64,000 nucleotides of DNA, from NCBI GenBank assembly GCA_016218825.1, contig JACRCV010000064.1, positions 1 through 64,000 on the forward strand, in the 5' to 3' direction. Made by a program: the position numbers and the translations under genes. Positions within the stretch are counted from its first letter, which is position 1, and each line of letters begins with the position of its first letter. Positions 36,909 to 46,511 of the stretch are shown here, one piece after another. The DNA comes from Deltaproteobacteria bacterium (GTDB lineage: Bacteria > Myxococcota > XYA12-FULL-58-9). Below the pieces are notes generated by a model. The model searched no databases and was not told where the DNA came from. It saw only the letters and a program-made list of their open reading frames with translations.

Positions 36909-38327
36909 ATGAAGCTCACCATACGCGTCAAGCTGTTCCTGGCGTTTGCCCTCCTGGCGGCCGTCGGCGCGTCCGGCGGGGTGTTGAGTCTGCTCAACCT
37001 CGAGGCGTTGGCCAGAACCTACCAGACCGAGCAGCGCCACGTCGCGACGCACGAAGCTCTCCATGACGACCGCGTCGCGTTGCTGTCGCTCCCGAACCTC
37101 GCGGCGGTCTACGACCGCGGCCGGGACACCGAGGTGCTCCATCTCATCGAACAGCGCCTCCGGCAGCTAGACTCTTCCACGCAGGCCTGCATTGGTTGCC
37201 ACACGGACTCACCGACCCATGTCGAGTTCGCCAGAAGACTGAAGGAGCTGCGGGAGCTGCTCTTGGCCGCGCCCGGCGAGGCGCTCGCCGGCCCGCCGCT
37301 TCGAGCGCCGAGCGCCCAGGGCGCGCTAGAGACGCTCGTCGGCGCCCTCGATGCAAGTCTCGGCCGAATGGAAGAGCGTTACCACCAGGTGCTGGGTGAG
37401 CATCGGGAAGCCAGCGAGACCATCCTCGAGCCGAGCCTCTGGCAGCAACTGGCGCTCGTGGCGGGCGGCCTGGTGGTCGCGTTGCTCCTGGCTTGGCTCA
37501 TGTCACGTGCTCTCAGCCGCCCGATCCTGCCCTTGATCGCGGCCGCCCGGCGGATTGGCGCGGGCGGCGTCGGCCGCGCTGCGAACCGTACGGGTGATCC
37601 CGACCTCGCTCAGGTCGAGGTCGCGCTCAGCGAGCTGACCACGCTCGTGGCGAGGCGAGCGCACGAGGACGCGCAGCGGTCTCTGCTCGACCGCGTCATC
37701 TCGTCGCAGGAGGACGAACGCAAGCGACTGGCGCGGGAGCTGCATGATGAGCTCGGCCAGTCGCTCTCGGCGTTGCTGATGAAGATCCGCTCGCCACCGA
37801 CCCGCGGCGCAGGGACTGCCGTCGATGTGATGGACTTGGAAACGCGCGTCTCCCGCCTCCTCGATGAGGTCCGGCGAATGGCTTGGGACTTGCGGCCGTC
37901 GCTCCTCGACGACCTCGGCATCCACCTGGCGCTCAGTCGACTTGCCGAGGAGGTGCACGAGCGTTACAGCCTGGCGATCGACTTTCAGGCGGTCGGCTTC
38001 GATCAGGGACACGACCGGCTTCCGGGCCGCACCGAGACGGTGCTCTACCGGGTCGCTCAAGAGGCGCTGAACAACGTCGCGCGCCACGCGCACGCGCGTC
38101 ACGTCAGCGTCGTCCTGGTCCGGCAGGGCCAGGAGGTCGCCTTGGTGGTGGAGGACGACGGCGCCGGGTTCGACGTCGGCGCCGTCCGACGTGGCCGCTC
38201 GTCTTTGGGCGTCCTGGGGATGGAGGAGCGCCTGGCCCTCGTCGGTGGCTCCTTCGTGCTCGAATCGACGCCTGGTCAGGGGACCACGGTGCAGGCGAGG
38301 ATCCCGCTCGGTGGGGTGCCGTCATGA
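36909..38327 (+). CDS. NarX/LiaS-type sensor histidine kinase with periplasmic heme-binding motif
   Basis: A 472-residue protein from ATG 36909. Transmembrane helices lie at about 7-29 and 178-202. Between them is a periplasmic sensor of about 150 residues containing CIGCH (C94, C97, H98), the covalent c-type heme attachment motif. The cytoplasmic part has a HisKA_3 dimerisation domain with phospho-acceptor H279 (RLARELHDELGQSLSALL) and a HATPase with the N box EALNNVARHA and a glycine loop DDGAGF, SLGVLGMEERL. The stop overlaps the next gene's start (ATGA). The two downstream genes are an octaheme lipoprotein and a ferredoxin-like membrane protein, so the sensed signal is probably redox or a heme-ligand gas. 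Confidence 0.88.
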   Translation: MKLTIRVKLFLAFALLAAVGASGGVLSLLNLEALARTYQTEQRHVATHEALHDDRVALLSLPNLAAVYDRGRDTEVLHLIEQRLRQLDSSTQACIGCHTDSPTHVEFARRLKELRELLLAAPGEALAGPPLRAPSAQGALETLVGALDASLGRMEERYHQVLGEHREASETILEPSLWQQLALVAGGLVVALLLAWLMSRALSRPILPLIAAARRIGAGGVGRAANRTGDPDLAQVEVALSELTTLVARRAHEDAQRSLLDRVISSQEDERKRLARELHDELGQSLSALLMKIRSPPTRGAGTAVDVMDLETRVSRLLDEVRRMAWDLRPSLLDDLGIHLALSRLAEEVHERYSLAIDFQAVGFDQGHDRLPGRTETVLYRVAQEALNNVARHAHARHVSVVLVRQGQEVALVVEDDGAGFDVGAVRRGRSSLGVLGMEERLALVGGSFVLESTPGQGTTVQARIPLGGVPS

Positions 38328-38971
38328 CCATCCGGACCCTCATCGCCGACGACCATTTGGTGTTTCGCAGCGGCCTCCGGGCGCTGTTGCAGCGTGAGGC
38401 CGACATCGAGATCGTCGGCGACGCCGGCAGCGCCGACGAGGTGTTGGCGCAGCTCGAACGGACGCCGGCCGACGTGCTGGTCCTCGATCTCTCGATGCCC
38501 GGCGGGCTCTCCGGCTCCCAGCTCGCCGAGTCGGTGTTGCGGCGCCACCCGCGCACGCGCATCGTCGTGCTCACGATGCACGAAGATCCCTACTACTTGA
38601 AGGAGATGTTCCGGGTGGGGGTCCATGGCTACGTTCTCAAGAGATCGGGCGCCGAGGACGTGGTGCGCGCGATCCGCGCCGCGTCCAAGAGCGAGTTTCA
38701 CGTGGACGCATCCCTCGGCGGCTCGGCGATGTCGGCGATGGTCGCGCCGGCCGCGCGACCGTCGCAAGGACGCCTCGGGCTGTTGACGCCCAGAGAGCGC
38801 GAGGTGTGCCGCCTGCTCGCGTTGGGCTTCACGAACGCCGACGCCGGCAAGAAGCTCTTCATCTCCGAGCGCACCATCGAGAGCCACCGCACCAGCATCA
38901 TGGCCAAGCTCAACCTCAAGAACCGTGCCGAGCTGGTCCGATTCGCGCTCGACAACGACCTGGTCCGATAG
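38324..38971 (+). CDS. NarL/LuxR-family response regulator
   Basis: A 215-residue protein. The receiver domain (1-120) has the acidic pocket D9/D10, phospho-acceptor D55 in LVLDLSMPGG, the T/S switch in IVVLTMHED and Lys in GYVLKRSG. A short linker leads to a LuxR-type helix-turn-helix at about 152-210 (LTPREREVCRLLALGFTNAD, then KKLFISERTIESHRTSIMAK). It should be phosphorylated by the overlapping histidine kinase and bind DNA as a dimer. The repeated 11-mer about 30 bases downstream of its stop is a candidate target. Confidence 0.94.
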   Translation: MTIRTLIADDHLVFRSGLRALLQREADIEIVGDAGSADEVLAQLERTPADVLVLDLSMPGGLSGSQLAESVLRRHPRTRIVVLTMHEDPYYLKEMFRVGVHGYVLKRSGAEDVVRAIRAASKSEFHVDASLGGSAMSAMVAPAARPSQGRLGLLTPREREVCRLLALGFTNADAGKKLFISERTIESHRTSIMAKLNLKNRAELVRFALDNDLVR

Positions 38972-39000
38972 CGCGCTCGATCGACCGCCCGGTCTCCGTA

Positions 39001-39043
39001 CTTTCCCCGGACATCTTCGCCGCAAAACCAACCTTTCCCCGGA
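39001..39043 (+). promoter_or_regulatory. Direct repeat, candidate response-regulator operator
   Basis: The 11-mer CTTTCCCCGGA occurs at 39001-39011 and again at 39033-39043, 32 bases apart, which is three helical turns, so both copies lie on the same face of the DNA. The repeat sits between the response-regulator gene and the octaheme lipoprotein gene, about 125 bases before the latter's ATG. Position and spacing fit an activator-binding site. No such 11-mer was noticed before the kinase gene. Confidence 0.4.
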
Positions 39044-39167
39044 TGCGGGTGACATCGGGCTTCCCTAGAATGGCGGCCATCAGCCCAGCCACGCCGATGG
39101 GGTGCTGGATGGTCGCAGCTTGAGTGGTCGCTCACGGTGCCTGGACACCGACAACGGAGAAGTCACG

Positions 39168-41681
39168 ATGAGAAGTCTGTGCTGGATGTCGTTCGTTGGC
39201 CTGCTGTCATTGCTCGATCTCGTTGCCTGCACGGGGGACGCTGGCGTCGCCGGGCCCGACGGGGCGCCGGGCAAGGACGGCGCGGATTGCACCCTCAGCA
39301 CCGTCGGCGGGGTCAAGACCATCACCTGCCCGGATGGGTCGACTTTCACGGTCACCGACGGTCAGCCATGCTGGGACTTGAACGGCAACGGCGCGGTCGA
39401 CGTGACCAGCGAAGACAAGAACGGCGACGGTGCGGTCGACGTTGAGGACTGCGAGGGCACCCCCGGCACCACTCCGGCGACCACGGGCACCATCAGCGGC
39501 GTCGTGCGGAACGCCGCGGGCACGCTCCTCGAGGGCGTCGGCATCGAGACGAGCCCCGCCTCGACGACCACGACGAGCGACGCGAGCGGCGCCTTCAGCC
39601 TCGCCGGCGTCGCCATGGGCTCCTACGCCGTTATCGGCAAGCGCTCCGGCTACGCCGACTACAACTTGCCGAACGTGGGCGTCGCTGCCGGCGCCACCAC
39701 CAACGTGCAGCTCGCGCTGACCCCCGGGGGCCCCGGCGCCATCAGCGGCGTGATCCTCAACGCCAACGGCGAGCCGGTCTCGGGCGCCACGGTGTCCGTC
39801 CAGGGTCAGGCCGGGGTGACTCCGGCCGTCACGACCGCAACGGGCGCGTACGCTCTCTCCGGCGTCGCCGCCGGCAGCGTCTTTCTTTCCGTCGCGCCGC
39901 CTGCGGGCAACGCCTACCTCCCCGGCGAGAACCACGACGGCATCTTCCTTGCCGCCGGCGCCACCCTCACCGGCGTCGACATGACCATCGCCTCGCGGCC
40001 GAGCAACGCGGCGACCTACTCGGGCACGGCGGTGTGCGTTTCGTGCCACGCAAGCCTCCCGGCGACGGCGGCGCTCGCCGCGGACTACGCGATGGCGGCA
40101 CACGGACGCTCGATCTCGGGCGAGACCTCCGGTCTGCCGGCCCCGGGCACGGGGCGCGTGCTGGACTCCGCCAAGGCCCTGTTCCCGGCCGTGGACGGCA
40201 CCACCAGCGTGTCTTTCCAGGCTCTCGATCCGACCGACGGCGTCGGCCTGTTGCCGGTGTTCCTCTGCAACAACACCACGGACGGCAACTACTCGATGAA
40301 GTTCGACGGCACGAGCTGCACCGACGGGGTGGGGACCATCATTCCAATCTCGGGCACCTACGGCGGCGAAGGTGACGGCGGCGTCGACCTCCAGCCCAAC
40401 CTGGGCAAGTTCAAGCAGCGCTTCCTGGCCAAGCTGGCCGATGTCCCGGTGGCCGCCGGCTGGACCTACACCGCCGGCAAGGCCAGAGACTACCTGATCC
40501 TACCCGTGCAGGTCACCCAGTCAGGCGACGGCGCGCCTTTGCTCGCTCCTTACAAGGAGACCAGCTGGTGTGGCCGCGACCGGACCTTCTCGCGCGCTTG
40601 CGCCGGCTGTCACGTGGTCGGGCTCAAGGTGGTGGTCGACAGCAACTTCTTCGTCACGAGCTACGAGTGGGCCAACAACAGCGAGCCCAAGAGCCAAAAC
40701 GTCGGTTGCGAGTCGTGTCACGGCCCCGGCTCGGAGCACGTCGCCGGGTCCGGCGACAAGCTGAAGGTCATCAATCCCAAATACCTGACCGCCGAGGGCG
40801 AGCGACAAGTCTGCGCCCAATGTCATGCGGCCGACGCCGGCAAGAGCAAGGATCCGGACGGCAAGTTCGGCTATGCCTGGAACCAGAGCCACCTCGGAGA
40901 TCTCGGCAACGGTGCCTTCGTGGCGGGTGTCTACAACGTCGCCGACTACATCAAAGGGTTCGGCGTCCCCATGGCCCAGGGTGGCGGCTTCGACGCCTGG
41001 CCGGACGGCAAGCACGGCAAGGCGCACCGCCAGCAGTACGCGATGCTGGCGTTTTCGGCACACACGAACAACCCCTACGAGAAGCTGACCTGCTCGAGCT
41101 GCCACAACGTCCACTCGACGGTCCAGGGGCCGGCCGCGGCGGTGCGCCAGGCAGGGGCCGACACGTTCACCTTCCACGACCTCACCTTCGACAACAACAC
41201 GCTGTGTCTGAGCTGCCACGCCGGCTACGGGCCGTTCGCGGCGCTGACGAAGGAAGACGTCGCCAAGCTGCACGTCTCCGACACCGGCACCGTCGACAAG
41301 AACGCGACCTTGAACGTGACTTACACCGCCGCCGAGATCACGCCGGCCATGGCGTTCATCGCCGCCGCTGTCAGCGAGCACATGCAAGACCAGGCCGGCA
41401 TGGGCCTGGCGGCATACGATCCCAAAGACGACGTGATGCCGGTGGGGCGCTGCACGTCGTGCCACATGCCCCGGACCGGCAAGTCCGGAGGCTTCACGAC
41501 CGGCCTCGACGGCGACGGCCTGAGCGCCCTCGCCGCGGGTGACGAGGGCTCCCATGCCTTCGACATCATCTGGCCCGGTCAGAGCGCGGTGCTCAAGAAG
41601 GCCACCGGTGGCGTCGACACCGACATCATGCCGAACTCGTGCGGCGGCTGCCATGCCGCAGCCCGCCTCAGCGGCAACTAG
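39168..41681 (+). CDS. Octaheme c-type cytochrome lipoprotein
   Basis: An 837-residue protein from ATG 39168 after GGAG. The signal ends LLDLVAC with lipidated C21. Parts in order: a short collagen-like Gly-X-Y run (GVAGPDGAPGKDGADC); an acidic Ca-binding-like segment (DLNGNGAVDVTSEDKNGDGA); two carboxypeptidase-regulatory-like beta domains at about 120-280; and a cytochrome part from about 285 with eight CxxCH motifs (CVSCH, CAGCH, CESCH, CAQCH, CSSCH, CLSCH, CTSCH, CGGCH). The order and the CESCHGPGSEH motif recall cytochrome c554/multiheme reductases. It probably moves electrons at the outer membrane, to or from an acceptor I cannot identify. Controlled, presumably, by the two-component pair just upstream. 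Confidence 0.88.
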   Translation: MRSLCWMSFVGLLSLLDLVACTGDAGVAGPDGAPGKDGADCTLSTVGGVKTITCPDGSTFTVTDGQPCWDLNGNGAVDVTSEDKNGDGAVDVEDCEGTPGTTPATTGTISGVVRNAAGTLLEGVGIETSPASTTTTSDASGAFSLAGVAMGSYAVIGKRSGYADYNLPNVGVAAGATTNVQLALTPGGPGAISGVILNANGEPVSGATVSVQGQAGVTPAVTTATGAYALSGVAAGSVFLSVAPPAGNAYLPGENHDGIFLAAGATLTGVDMTIASRPSNAATYSGTAVCVSCHASLPATAALAADYAMAAHGRSISGETSGLPAPGTGRVLDSAKALFPAVDGTTSVSFQALDPTDGVGLLPVFLCNNTTDGNYSMKFDGTSCTDGVGTIIPISGTYGGEGDGGVDLQPNLGKFKQRFLAKLADVPVAAGWTYTAGKARDYLILPVQVTQSGDGAPLLAPYKETSWCGRDRTFSRACAGCHVVGLKVVVDSNFFVTSYEWANNSEPKSQNVGCESCHGPGSEHVAGSGDKLKVINPKYLTAEGERQVCAQCHAADAGKSKDPDGKFGYAWNQSHLGDLGNGAFVAGVYNVADYIKGFGVPMAQGGGFDAWPDGKHGKAHRQQYAMLAFSAHTNNPYEKLTCSSCHNVHSTVQGPAAAVRQAGADTFTFHDLTFDNNTLCLSCHAGYGPFAALTKEDVAKLHVSDTGTVDKNATLNVTYTAAEITPAMAFIAAAVSEHMQDQAGMGLAAYDPKDDVMPVGRCTSCHMPRTGKSGGFTTGLDGDGLSALAAGDEGSHAFDIIWPGQSAVLKKATGGVDTDIMPNSCGGCHAAARLSGN

Positions 41682-41842
41682 ACCCTGCTTCGAGCCGCCG
41701 GTGGCGCCGAGCGTCACGCCGGTGCCCCGTAGGCGGACTCTCCTCTTCTTCCGGCGGAGCGGGAGCCTTCGAGATATCCCGCTCCGCACTGGCTCCGGGC
41801 TGCGCACCATCGTTCCGGGTCGACGCTGGTGCCGCGGCGGGC

Positions 41843-43051
41843 ATGGGGGCTCGCATGGTGCAGAGCCGACTGCGTTGGGATCTCCTGTCGTCGACCTTTG
41901 CCCGCGGATCCCGGTGGCGGGCGCGCTCCCCGCTCTTGTTTCAGGCGCTGGCGCTGGCGGCTGCCATCGCCCTCGCCGTCAACGGCTGGTCCATCGGCAC
42001 CGAGGAGACCGCCGCGGCCCGATTGGTGCTGCGCAAGACCAACTTGACGACCCTGGCGGTGTGGGGACTGTGGTGGCCGTTGATGATCCTCCTCGCGATC
42101 ACCCTCGGCCGTGTCTGGTGCACCGCCTGTCCGTTGGAGCTCGCATGCCGCGCGGGCGGCGCCGCCGCGCGTCACGTCGGCTGGCGCCGGCTCGTGCTGC
42201 CGCGCTTCATGCGCTCCGGCTGGGCCGTCTTTCTAGCCTACCTCGTGCTGCAGGTGCTCGTAGCGGCAGCATCCATTCACCGCGTCCCGCATTTCACGAG
42301 CATCTTCCTCGCCCTGCTCGGGGGCCTCGCGCTGGTCTCGGGCTTGATCTTCGCCGCGCCGCACGCGTTCTGCCGCGGGCTCTGCCCGGCCCGAGCGCTG
42401 CTGTCGGTCTACGGTCGCTGCACCCCGCGAGCCGGTGTGCGACGGAATCGTGAGCTCCGGCCCTTCGAGGCGGCTTTCGTGGTCGCGGCTGCCGGCTTCG
42501 TGACCCATGAGCTGGTCGGCGAGGTCGCATGGTTGGAGAACCTCTTCCACGTCGTGCCCGAGGCAGTGCACAGGCAGTGGCCGGCGCTGGCCGCCGAGTG
42601 GCTGGAGGTGATCTGGTTCCTCGCCGTCTTCCCGACCGCGCTGTGGGCGCTCGTGGCCGCAGTCGCCCGGACGTTTGGCAATCGCGGCGGCCTGAAAGCT
42701 ACGTTGCTCTCGACCGCGACCGGTGCCGCCCCGGTCATCGCCCTCGGCCACGCCGCCAAGGCGATGAGCAAGCTCGGCGCCTGGGCAGGCTACCTGCCGT
42801 TGGCGCTCCAGGACCCGAATGGAATCGAGACCCTCCACAAGATCTCGTCCGGCGCGCTCTCGGCGCCGGTGCCTCTCGTCGGCCTGTCGATGCCGGGCCT
42901 TCTCACGGCAGCGGCGGTGGTCCTGGTCGGTTGGCGGAGCTGGCGTTGGGCGCGTGCCACGGTGCCGGGCCAGCTCCCGGCGCTGCGCGCCGGATTTCTG
43001 GTGGCCGCGGTGTTCTACACGTCGATCATGGTCGTGTGGATGGAGGCGTGA
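41843..43051 (+). CDS. NosR/NapH/FixG-like membrane protein with CxxxCP motifs
   Basis: A 402-residue polytopic protein; the start is ATG 41843 or 41855. About eight helices are visible. Loops after two helices carry GRVWCTACPLELAC and FCRGLCPARALLSVYGRC, the degenerate CxxxCP motifs of the NosR/NapH polyferredoxin group, in which Cys bind or border iron-sulphur or quinol-linked electron sites. The soluble [4Fe-4S] ferredoxin part found in NapH and NosR is missing. It probably passes electrons from the quinone pool to the octaheme lipoprotein encoded 160 bases upstream. The gene ends 10 bases from the stop of a minus-strand gene. Confidence 0.7.
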   Translation: MGARMVQSRLRWDLLSSTFARGSRWRARSPLLFQALALAAAIALAVNGWSIGTEETAAARLVLRKTNLTTLAVWGLWWPLMILLAITLGRVWCTACPLELACRAGGAAARHVGWRRLVLPRFMRSGWAVFLAYLVLQVLVAAASIHRVPHFTSIFLALLGGLALVSGLIFAAPHAFCRGLCPARALLSVYGRCTPRAGVRRNRELRPFEAAFVVAAAGFVTHELVGEVAWLENLFHVVPEAVHRQWPALAAEWLEVIWFLAVFPTALWALVAAVARTFGNRGGLKATLLSTATGAAPVIALGHAAKAMSKLGAWAGYLPLALQDPNGIETLHKISSGALSAPVPLVGLSMPGLLTAAAVVLVGWRSWRWARATVPGQLPALRAGFLVAAVFYTSIMVVWMEA

Positions 43052-43954: not shown

Positions 43955-45283
43955 TCAACGTATGCGCAGATCCCACACGTCGCGCGACGAGCTCATCTTG
44001 GCCTGGGTGGCTTTCGGTTTGTACCCGGACATGAACGCGTGCCGCAGGACGTCTTCGCTCTCGGCGCGCATCGGGAACAGGGTCATCGTCAGCTGGCGGC
44101 GGGCGCGGTCGACGTGCACGGTGAGGTGGCCGTCGTCGGTGCTGCCGTGGATCACGGTCCACTCTTGGCCGAGGATGGTGTGCCTGGCGGTGAGCTTCAG
44201 CGGTGAGTTGCCCTCGGCGATGTCGAGGATCATGTCGAGGTAGAGCGGGGTCGCGAAGCGGGGCTCTTCAATCTCGTCGTAGAACCCGAAGAAGATCGGG
44301 TGGCGCTGGTAGAACTGCTCGGCGTAGAGGTTCAGCGGCACGCAGAACTCGTTTGCGGCGTGCTTGACGACGGTGCCGGCGTCGCGCCGGATCTCGACCC
44401 AGTCGCTCTCGTAGGTGTGGATCTTCATGTACTGCGAGTAGTAGCGGTTGTGACGCCGATGCCAGGCGACGATCGGGAACTTCATCTCGGCGGCGACCTC
44501 GCGGAACAGGCGCTCGGTGGGGCCGTACACCGCGACGTAGCCTCTGGCCCCGGGCTTCACCAGCGAGAAGGCGCGCGACAAGAAGATCTCGAAGCAGTCG
44601 CGGTTCGACATCGGATCGGTGAGGAAGAGATCGAAGTGGTCGCGCTCGGCGTCGTCGAGCGGGTCGCGCAAGTCCTTCTCGACCGCCTGCAGCGTCAGGC
44701 CCAACGCCGCCGCGGTGTCGCGCAGGAAGGTCAGCAGGAAGTCGTCGATGTCGAAGACCGTGACGTCGTGACCGAGCGCCGCGAGCGGCACCGAGACCAG
44801 GTCGTCGTCGCCGACGCACAAGATCTTCTTGGCGCCCACCTCCGCCGCGTCGCCCACGAGCAGGGCGCGGCGCAGCGTCGTCTCCGGCAAGGTCGGACAC
44901 TGACCGACCCGGGTGAAGAAGCGCTTGCGCCGGCCGTGAGCCTCGAGGGTCAGCTCGTAGGCGCGCCGCGCCCGGGGGCTGAGCGCGGCCTCGTAGGCCG
45001 TGAGGTAGAGGCGGTCGAGCGCCGCGAGCTTGGTCTTGAGCACCGGGTCGGTGGTCGCCGGGCCGTGGACGATCACGCCCTCCTGGAGCAGGCGGGGCAA
45101 GAACGACTCGTAGCCTTCGCCGCTCCAGCCGAGCGACACCTTTTCGAGCGGCTCGATGAAGCGGAAGTCGATGCGGATCTCGCCGTCGGTCTTCAGATCA
45201 ATGAGCTGCGTGTCGCGGCTGCCGATGCCGAGCACGATGCCGTCGCCGAGGTGATACAGCGGCTTCTGAGCGCTCTCAGGCAA
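43955..45283 (-). CDS. BpsA-like branched-chain polyamine aminopropyltransferase
   Basis: A 442-residue protein. It starts at TTG 45283, with AAGGAG seven bases upstream, and overlaps the previous gene by eight bases. The Rossmann-type domain carries the BpsA motif VGDDDLVSVPLAALG (G158-D161), the acidic DIDDFLL (178-184) and FLTDPMSN (D223-P224). In archaeal and thermophile BpsA these positions hold the amine acceptor and the decarboxylated S-adenosylmethionine. Upstream of it is the winged-helix-like TLPETTLRRALLV typical of the family. BpsA adds two aminopropyl groups to the same spermidine nitrogen. The extra C-terminal 120 residues (AWHRRHNRYYSQYMK onward) are not familiar. AdoMet decarboxylase is two genes upstream. 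Confidence 0.72.
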   Translation of the reverse strand: MPESAQKPLYHLGDGIVLGIGSRDTQLIDLKTDGEIRIDFRFIEPLEKVSLGWSGEGYESFLPRLLQEGVIVHGPATTDPVLKTKLAALDRLYLTAYEAALSPRARRAYELTLEAHGRRKRFFTRVGQCPTLPETTLRRALLVGDAAEVGAKKILCVGDDDLVSVPLAALGHDVTVFDIDDFLLTFLRDTAAALGLTLQAVEKDLRDPLDDAERDHFDLFLTDPMSNRDCFEIFLSRAFSLVKPGARGYVAVYGPTERLFREVAAEMKFPIVAWHRRHNRYYSQYMKIHTYESDWVEIRRDAGTVVKHAANEFCVPLNLYAEQFYQRHPIFFGFYDEIEEPRFATPLYLDMILDIAEGNSPLKLTARHTILGQEWTVIHGSTDDGHLTVHVDRARRQLTMTLFPMRAESEDVLRHAFMSGYKPKATQAKMSSSRDVWDLRIR

Positions 45284-46511
45284 AGAAGTACTCCTTGTCG
45301 GCGCGTCGGGTCCGCAAGGGCCGCACCCGCGAGGCGTCGTCGCACAACACCGCGTGCGCCGCCCACAGCGCCAGGTATTCGAGGTCGGCGTCGAAGGGCA
45401 CGATCGAGATCAACAGGTGCTCTTCGGCGCGCCGCAGCTCCGCGGTCAACCCGTGACCGCGACTGTCGTACCAACAGAGCACGTCGTGGTCGTGCGCCCC
45501 GTGCAACGAGCGCCCCTCTTCCGCCGCCGGCGCCGCCGCCGCGAGCAGCGTCGCAAAGCGCGTGAGCGCCGTCTTGTCCAGCGTGGCGCGCGGCACGCTG
45601 TCGATGTCCAACACCCCGTGCGGCGTGGCGCGCACCGTCGCCGCGACCCCCGCCTCGATCGCCGGCAGCGCCGCACCTTCCGGGCGCCGATAGACCACCA
45701 GGTCCTGACCACCGTCGATGACCGCAAGCCCCGGGACCAGCCAATGGTCGATCTCCCGCTCGTAGCGCTCCACCACCAACCCCGCCTGCGCCGCGAGCGA
45801 CAACATCACCTCTTCCCAGGGCAACCGCATCCCGACGACGATGTGACCCCCCGGCCGCGTGCACCGGATCGCCAATCCCAACTCCGCCGCGCTCGCCGCC
45901 GGCGGCCCACAGAAGATCACAGAAACATCAAACAATCCGTCGATGTCTGAGTTTGTTGTAAGATGCAACTTATTATTCTCCCGGGCGGCTTCGGTCGCGA
46001 GCCAATGGTGGCGGACGGGGTCGGGCTCGGTGACGGTGACGTCGGCGTTGGTGGCGAGGAGGACGCCGAGGCCGTCGGGGTCGTCGGTGAGGAGGATCTT
46101 CTTGCCGCAAAGCGCGGCGATGATCTCCGCGCGGCGCAACGTGGACGACGGCAAGGTCGGGCGGGCGAGGCGCGGCAGGGTCCAGGCCTTACGGCGGCTG
46201 TGCATTGCGCGTACTCGGCGAAGCTCGGGGTCGCGGGATCGGGTGAACCCGGGCAGCCAGCCGACGTAGCGTTCGTCGAGGAGGGCGAGGCGTTGTTCGA
46301 CGCGGTTCAGATCTGAAGGCGCGTCGTCCAAGAGCGGCGCGAGCGCGCTCTGGACTTGCGCCGGAACCTCATGGGTGCGGCCGGCGCACCAGTCGACGAG
46401 CGGGGCGCGGCAGCCGGCGGGGAGCACCACGGGCTCGCGCGCGTCGGGGAGAAGGACGGCGGTGCGCGGCCAGAGGGCGAGGGGGGTGCCGGCGGCGAGG
46501 GGTGGCATCAT
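45276..46511 (-). CDS. Divergent BpsA-like paralogue
   Basis: A 411-residue protein from ATG 46511. It aligns by eye with its downstream neighbour over the core: RRKAWTLPRLARPTLPSSTL against RRKRFFTRVGQCPTLPETTL, then KKILLTDDPDGLGVLLATNA against KKILCVGDDDLVSVPLAALG. Its key motifs have decayed: GDDD is TDDPD (142-146), and the D-P pair is CGPPAAS (201-207). It may be a catalytically weak partner subunit, or act on a different acceptor. Codons for residues 178-200 (ENNKLHLTTNSDIDGLFDVS) are strikingly AT-rich against their surroundings. Same transcript as speD upstream (39 bases) and the second copy downstream (overlap). Confidence 0.6.
   Translation of the reverse strand: MMPPLAAGTPLALWPRTAVLLPDAREPVVLPAGCRAPLVDWCAGRTHEVPAQVQSALAPLLDDAPSDLNRVEQRLALLDERYVGWLPGFTRSRDPELRRVRAMHSRRKAWTLPRLARPTLPSSTLRRAEIIAALCGKKILLTDDPDGLGVLLATNADVTVTEPDPVRHHWLATEAARENNKLHLTTNSDIDGLFDVSVIFCGPPAASAAELGLAIRCTRPGGHIVVGMRLPWEEVMLSLAAQAGLVVERYEREIDHWLVPGLAVIDGGQDLVVYRRPEGAALPAIEAGVAATVRATPHGVLDIDSVPRATLDKTALTRFATLLAAAAPAAEEGRSLHGAHDHDVLCWYDSRGHGLTAELRRAEEHLLISIVPFDADLEYLALWAAHAVLCDDASRVRPLRTRRADKEYFFA

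Follow-up and report, generated by a model that had tools for sequence, protein, structure and literature searches.

A putative heme-reading two-component switch beside an octaheme cytochrome gene in a Myxococcota genome

The window analysed here is a stretch of 64,000 nucleotides (contig JACRCV010000064.1, positions 1 to 64,000) from a Deltaproteobacteria bacterium of the Myxococcota (assembly GCA_016218825.1), placed in contig C40 of the 6.54-Mb draft genome. Four consecutive genes on its forward strand are considered. They encode a sensor histidine kinase of 472 amino acids (36909..38327, from the ATG at 36909 to the stop at 38327), a NarL/LuxR-type response regulator of 215 amino acids (38324..38971), an octaheme c-type cytochrome lipoprotein of 837 amino acids (39168..41681), and a NapH/NosR-like membrane protein of 398 amino acids (41855..43051). 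The first three probably make up a two-component switch that takes its signal from a heme and controls a single cytochrome, a reading to which we assign a probability of roughly two thirds.

The kinase was delimited from its translation, Pfam matches, hydropathy, and motif positions. Two hydrophobic segments found by hydropathy (residues 11-29 and 181-199) are the transmembrane (TM) segments TM1 and TM2. They enclose a helical periplasmic domain, and TM2 is followed by a HAMP-like linker, a HisKA_3 domain with the phospho-acceptor His279, and a HATPase_c domain. Both catalytic domains pass the Pfam cut-off (HisKA_3, E 2.2e-12; HATPase_c, E 9.6e-13), and the HAMP match is weak (E 0.16). The catalytic motifs ELHD (277-280), NNVARH (from 388), and DDGAGFD (from 416) are intact. 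With both domains, the phospho-acceptor histidine, and the N and G boxes, the protein belongs to the HisKA_3 (NarL-family) kinases. An earlier sequence-only reading of this DNA had called it NarX-type. This description fits the catalytic core and the helical sensor but not the family models, since the kinase scores 64.8 bits against NarX (cut-off 578) and 53.8 bits against NarQ (cut-off 553).

As the same reading had noted, the periplasmic domain carries a heme-c attachment motif, CIGCH (residues 94-98; 37188..37202), between the two TM segments. A CxxCH arises in only 0.08% of trials when the residues of this periplasmic segment are shuffled. Ccm/Ccs systems normally need no more than an exported CxxCH to attach heme, and a system of this type must be present in any organism with an octaheme protein. 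The kinase is therefore expected to carry one covalent heme. A second motif, HEALH (residues 48-52; 37050..37064), lies on the first sensor helix. In the alignment with the only homologue found, described below, the invariant positions include His48, Glu49, His52, His159, and His165, and no cysteine is invariant beyond the CxxCH pair. From this conservation, the four histidines, with the HExxH stretch, are candidate distal heme ligands.

The sensor domain has no Pfam match above the cut-off and no PDB profile match. A single-sequence AlphaFold model of the domain is all-helical and without strands (predicted local distance difference test [pLDDT] 71, predicted template modelling score [pTM] 0.53), and CIGCH stands where helix 2 ends, ahead of helix 3. 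Foldseek searches with this model returned nothing at E <= 0.001 and gave weak matches to assorted helix bundles, including NarQ and Tar fragments. We therefore name the domain a helical heme-c sensor. Membership in the Tll0287/sCache_heme family, which has a Cache fold, is excluded by the wholly helical model, and PF11845 gave no match at E <= 1. Three proteins with PF11845 are encoded elsewhere in the same genome (L001, L002, and L003, on contigs C5, C70, and C101), so the host also uses the known type of heme sensor.

Among 195 genomes of the phylum, the sensor was found in two, its own and one from a different family (G016). The G016 kinase is a full-length homologue, 49% identical overall and 35-38% identical in the sensor domain. 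It carries CDACH in the alignment columns of CIGCH, and the surrounding sensor residues have diverged. Absence of the motif from close homologues had been put forward as evidence that would speak against a heme sensor. The motif is kept in G016 (n = 1); with one homologue found, its conservation rests on two sequences and is indicative only. No homologue was found among 297 genomes of the Desulfobulbaceae phylum, and the matches seen in Desulfobacterota were rejected as two-TM proteins of another kind, without CxxCH. Across 39 genomes of other groups, almost all matches were limited to the TM2/HAMP region. None was found in 327 Acidobacteriota-side genomes, in a search run without a positive control. 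The phylum of a further genome (G212) is the window's own, and the sensor search there gave the G016 locus again.

The order of the genes is conserved between the two families. In G016, the kinase with CDACH is followed by a regulator that overlaps it by ATGA and by an octaheme lipoprotein with a long collagen-like run. The regulators of the two genomes are 66% identical, and the cytochromes only about 31%. Downstream of the G016 octaheme gene lie genes for a cytochrome c'-like lipoprotein and a ChrA-like transporter. The former is a monoheme protein (L116:2438-2866, reverse strand) that matches PF01322 with E 1.9e-5, 0.5 bit below the cut-off. Cytochrome c' proteins bind nitric oxide (NO). 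This neighbour is a weak hint that the heme kinase may sense NO.

The regulator in the window has Response_reg and GerE domains in Pfam, and its phospho-acceptor is Asp55. Its start lies within the stop of the kinase gene; this ATGA overlap had been claimed before and is read directly from the sequence. Against the NarL model it scores 109.2 bits (cut-off 250). In their recognition helices, the two regulators hardly differ (SERTIESHRTSIMAKL in the window and SERTVESHRTHIMHKL in G016).

The spacer between regulator and cytochrome genes is 196 nt long in the window and 158 nt long in G016. Within the window spacer, the 11-nt sequence CTTTCCCCGGA occurs twice as a perfect direct repeat, at 39001 and 39033. 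The first copy (39001-39011) lies within a 19-bp site, CCGTACTTTCCCCGGACAT (38996..39014, forward strand, exact match). The 19-bp pattern CCGTACTTTYCCCGGAYAT matches with zero mismatches once in the window's own genome (G000) and once in G016, both times ahead of the octaheme gene. The closest matches after these have three mismatches, equal to reversed-pattern controls. The second copy (39033-39043) extends to TTTCCCCGGATGCGG (39033..39048, forward strand), for which the G016 counterpart is TTTCCCCGGATTCGG. In the G016 spacer, CTCCGTACTTTTCCCGGATAT is followed 34 bp on by TTTCCCCGGATTCGG, and the second copy of the core lies 32-34 bp downstream in the two genomes. This paired pattern is unique within the window's own genome. 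By local similarity, the two spacers are more alike than any of 1000 pairs of dinucleotide-preserving shuffles. The ungapped score is 18, where the shuffles reach at most 16, and the gapped score is 20, where they reach 17. A candidate -10-like box, TAGAAT (39066..39071, forward strand), lies 32 bp from where the second repeat begins, and TAGGGT is found at an equal offset in G016. The core of the putative operator, TTTCCCCGGA, differs from the heptamer of NarL systems. Upstream of the other six octaheme genes, the element was not seen by eye.

Since the same spacer element, with its 19-bp site, repeat, and -10-like box, is found in both genomes, the cytochrome gene probably has its own promoter. 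Switching of this promoter by the adjoining regulator is the simplest reading of the putative operator. The sequence-only reading had regarded independent expression of the cytochrome as a result that would contradict its proposal. A separate promoter is indeed probable, but this promoter carries the putative site of the regulator. The proposal that the cytochrome is under the adjoining two-component pair has thus been strengthened, by the synteny in G016 and by the tandem element upstream of the cytochrome gene in both genomes.

The cytochrome had been described as an eight-CxxCH lipoprotein with extra beta domains, and this agrees with our annotation from motifs, Pfam, and profile searches. 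It has a lipobox, LVAC, with Cys21, followed by a short collagen-like Gly-X-X run, and Pfam assigns two CarboxypepD_reg (carboxypeptidase-regulatory-like beta) domains. The heme part is OcwA/MtrC-like: a profile of eight sequences matches 6i5b (E 3.4e-23) and 6qvm (E 2.2e-8), and the Mtrc-MtrF_II-IV profile matches the G016 member above the cut-off (E 8.2e-11). Over the heme core, the protein is thus homologous to the OcwA/MtrC-like multiheme surface cytochromes. 6I5B is OcwA of Thermincola potens and 6QVM is OmhA of Carboxydothermus ferrireducens, both surface multiheme terminal reductases (PMC12203936, PMC7829351). These multiheme proteins, proposed to work at the cell surface, have 9 or 11 hemes, whereas the protein in the window has eight and is lipid-anchored, with collagen-like and carboxypeptidase-regulatory domains, in a Gram-negative context. 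The lipobox has no Asp at +2 and is followed by the Gly-X-X spacer, which suggests an outer-membrane location and may point to exposure at the surface.

The octaheme family is present in eight of the 195 genomes of the phylum, and all members have eight CxxCH motifs. Six further histidines (312, 524, 620, 649, 738, and 796) are invariant across the eight members. Since these six candidates fall short of the eight distal positions, one or two hemes may lack a histidine ligand, which we offer as a lead and not as a result. Structure prediction of the heme part was uninformative (pLDDT 32). Other arrangements around the octaheme gene were also observed. In G171 (L144:2729-9845), a PhnD-like lipoprotein comes after it, and then a different two-component pair, consisting of a HisKA kinase and an opposite-strand NtrC-type regulator. 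In G070, a four-helix-bundle/HAMP protein precedes it.

Sensors with c-type heme are an established kind (PMC12889525, PMC8396549). The sCache_heme domains (Tll0287/DUF3365, PF11845) are periplasmic covalent-heme sensors with a single CxxCH, for which NO or redox sensing has been proposed, and examples include kinases and chemoreceptors such as GSU0582 and GSU0935 (PMC12889525, PMC3460858). The sensor in the window similarly belongs to a membrane signalling protein and has its CxxCH in the extracytoplasmic domain. It differs in being helical and without a PF11845 match, whereas sCache_heme has the Cache alpha/beta fold. DcrA of Desulfovibrio vulgaris is cited as the first c-type heme sensor described (in PMC3460858 and PMC8396549). 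DcrA also reads a periplasmic c-type heme from a membrane-spanning protein, in its case for oxygen or redox. By its description, it is set apart as a chemoreceptor and not a kinase, and it is counted among the PAS-type c-heme sensors (PMC8396549). The NarX/NarQ-NarL systems share the two TM segments, helical periplasmic domain, HisKA_3 kinase, and NarL/LuxR regulator with the pair in the window, but the scores against the family models fall below the cut-offs, as given above. The NarX sensor is not known to carry a CxxCH.

The sequence-only reading had considered a periplasmic CIGCH rare in a NarX-type kinase. In this kinase superfamily, a periplasmic CxxCH is uncommon, but not rare, since several other HisKA_3 kinases in the comparison genomes have one, mostly in Cache-type sensors. 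In one recurrent group, a CxxCH lies close to the end of the large periplasmic sensor (L044:4281-6647, L057:168-2501, L059:145-2049, L070:8669-10939, L007:304-2232, L008:1489-3651, and L010:1-2226). Of the four that were scanned, three match dCache_1, and no match to Tll0287 was obtained for any of them. These kinases are possibly a second Cache-based type of c-heme sensor, occurring across Chloroflexi and the window's phylum. A kinase in the genome G019 (L117:1-1979) has two CxxCH motifs (CRICH and CHGCH) in a Cache-like sensor. It is followed by a NarL-type regulator overlapping by ATG, and another kinase-regulator pair lies downstream.

While c-heme sensors, NarL-type regulators, and OcwA-like cytochromes are each already known, a helical heme sensor together with a single-copy operator is a combination new to us. 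A phrase search of the literature for helical c-heme kinases gave no match. The odds seem even that the sensor represents a previously undescribed covalent-heme family, a four-helix bundle with HExxH and two more histidines, which has its own single-copy operator and a redox- or NO-gated octaheme outlet.

The fourth gene encodes the NapH-like protein, with 41855 as the most likely start and 41843 as the other good candidate. As had been noted, it is NosR/NapH-like without the ferredoxin part. It keeps the CTACP (CX2CP) and CRGLCP (CX3CP) motifs and the helices, has no ferredoxin motif and no Pfam match, and with 10.8 bits against the NapH model (cut-off 213) falls outside that family. Two 4Fe-4S motifs (CxxC...KDC and CVLCLQCAKVCP) are present in five relatives in the phylum. 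Apart from about 69 residues missing in frame at the 4Fe-4S site, where both motifs are deleted, the window copy is collinear with them. As all five relatives keep the ferredoxin, the window copy represents a derived, local loss and could be decaying or repurposed. RdhC proteins are NosR/NapH-type membrane modules without ferredoxin clusters that may still handle quinol (PMC5928378). The window protein resembles NapH/NosR and RdhC/PceC in its multi-helix membrane module and paired CX2-3CP motifs, and RdhC in being free of 4Fe-4S clusters (PMC5928378). It differs from RdhC in having no N-terminal domain ahead of the first helix, and therefore no FMN (flavin mononucleotide) domain. It could be a quinol module that works without clusters, as in RdhC, a gene in decay, or an artefact of the assembly. 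We do not count this neighbour in the switch. Further downstream, a protein with a BpsA_C (branched-chain polyamine synthase) domain (E 3.3e-25) is encoded on the reverse strand (43955-45283) and overlaps an unassigned gene at 45276-46511. The BpsA_C family is known mainly from thermophiles.

If the three-gene switch operates as proposed, the kinase would be exported across the inner membrane and standard c-heme maturation would attach one heme to CIGCH, within a helical, non-Cache periplasmic bundle. A change at the heme, in redox state or through a small ligand such as NO, would shift the bundle, TM2, and the HAMP-like linker. This would alter phosphorylation of His279, and the phosphate would pass to Asp55 of the LuxR-type regulator. 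The regulator would then bind the tandem sites (38996-39014 and 39033-39048), just upstream of the -10-like box, and activate transcription of the gene for the octaheme lipoprotein, which would be lipid-anchored in the outer membrane and transfer electrons as an OcwA/MtrC-like protein.

Several results weigh against this switch: the moderate confidence of the single-sequence sensor model and its lack of a Foldseek match, the single sensor homologue, and a sigma-70 consensus scan that found no promoter in the region, where such promoters and intrinsic terminators were no more frequent than expected by chance. The kinase-regulator pair is also absent from the side of the octaheme gene in six of the eight genomes that have one, so other controls of the cytochrome are possible. 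It is unlikely that the kinase is a helical ligand sensor without heme, its CxxCH being a redox-active cysteine pair or a metal site, with the cytochrome controlled as proposed. The sensor matches no recognised heme domain (Tll0287, cytochrome, or PDB profile), and helical sensors of this general kind, such as NarX and Tar, bind small ligands without heme. However, the full C-x-x-C-H, its histidine included, is kept in both homologues, with no other invariant cysteine. Cytochrome c maturation recognises its substrates by an exported CxxCH, and the target gene itself encodes a cytochrome c. It is also unlikely, in our view, that the regulator represses or merely autoregulates, with the spacer element serving a different regulator or being an RNA feature in the leader of the cytochrome gene. 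The protein that binds a DNA element cannot be told from its conservation alone, and the octaheme gene occurs without the adjoining pair in six genomes. However, the element was seen upstream of this gene only in the two pair-bearing genomes and, by eye, not in the other six, and it lies upstream of the -10-like box and not in a leader.

A single electron-transfer operon is likewise improbable. In such an operon, the NapH-like protein would oxidise quinol and supply the octaheme lipoprotein with electrons, and the heme kinase would control the whole gene set. The two genes are directly adjacent on the same strand, the CX2CP/CX3CP motifs and helices are retained, and the ferredoxin-free RdhC modules offer a precedent for quinol handling (PMC5928378). 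In none of the seven other octaheme genomes, however, does a NapH-like gene adjoin the cytochrome gene, and all five relatives lie in other gene neighbourhoods. In G019, both genes are present but on separate contigs, and the flanks examined show them not to be adjacent. The 173-nt gap between the two genes in the window holds a perfect 11-bp inverted repeat with a 12-nt loop and no T tract (41754..41787, forward strand), although the spacer folds no better than its shuffles (z -1.2). No periplasmic shuttle or porin is encoded between the two genes, and no porin partner turned up, although no search was aimed at porins. The quinone-to-surface electron path of the sequence-only reading is thus not upheld, as the NapH-like gene is unlinked elsewhere and the ferredoxin is lost in the window copy only. 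Of its proposed trio, the kinase-regulator-octaheme linkage recurs in G016, and the NapH-like gene does not follow it.

Little is understood of the way in which bacteria time the building of multiheme electron outlets. In the window, all the parts fit within 5 kb: a putative heme sensor, its regulator, the conserved operator, and one cytochrome as the target. This turns the question into a small, testable promoter-reporter problem. If the helical c-heme sensor is real, signalling proteins would have acquired covalent heme on more than one fold, which would go beyond the Cache-only picture (PMC12889525). The cell would then make its octaheme outlet only once the periplasmic heme has signalled a suitable redox or NO state.

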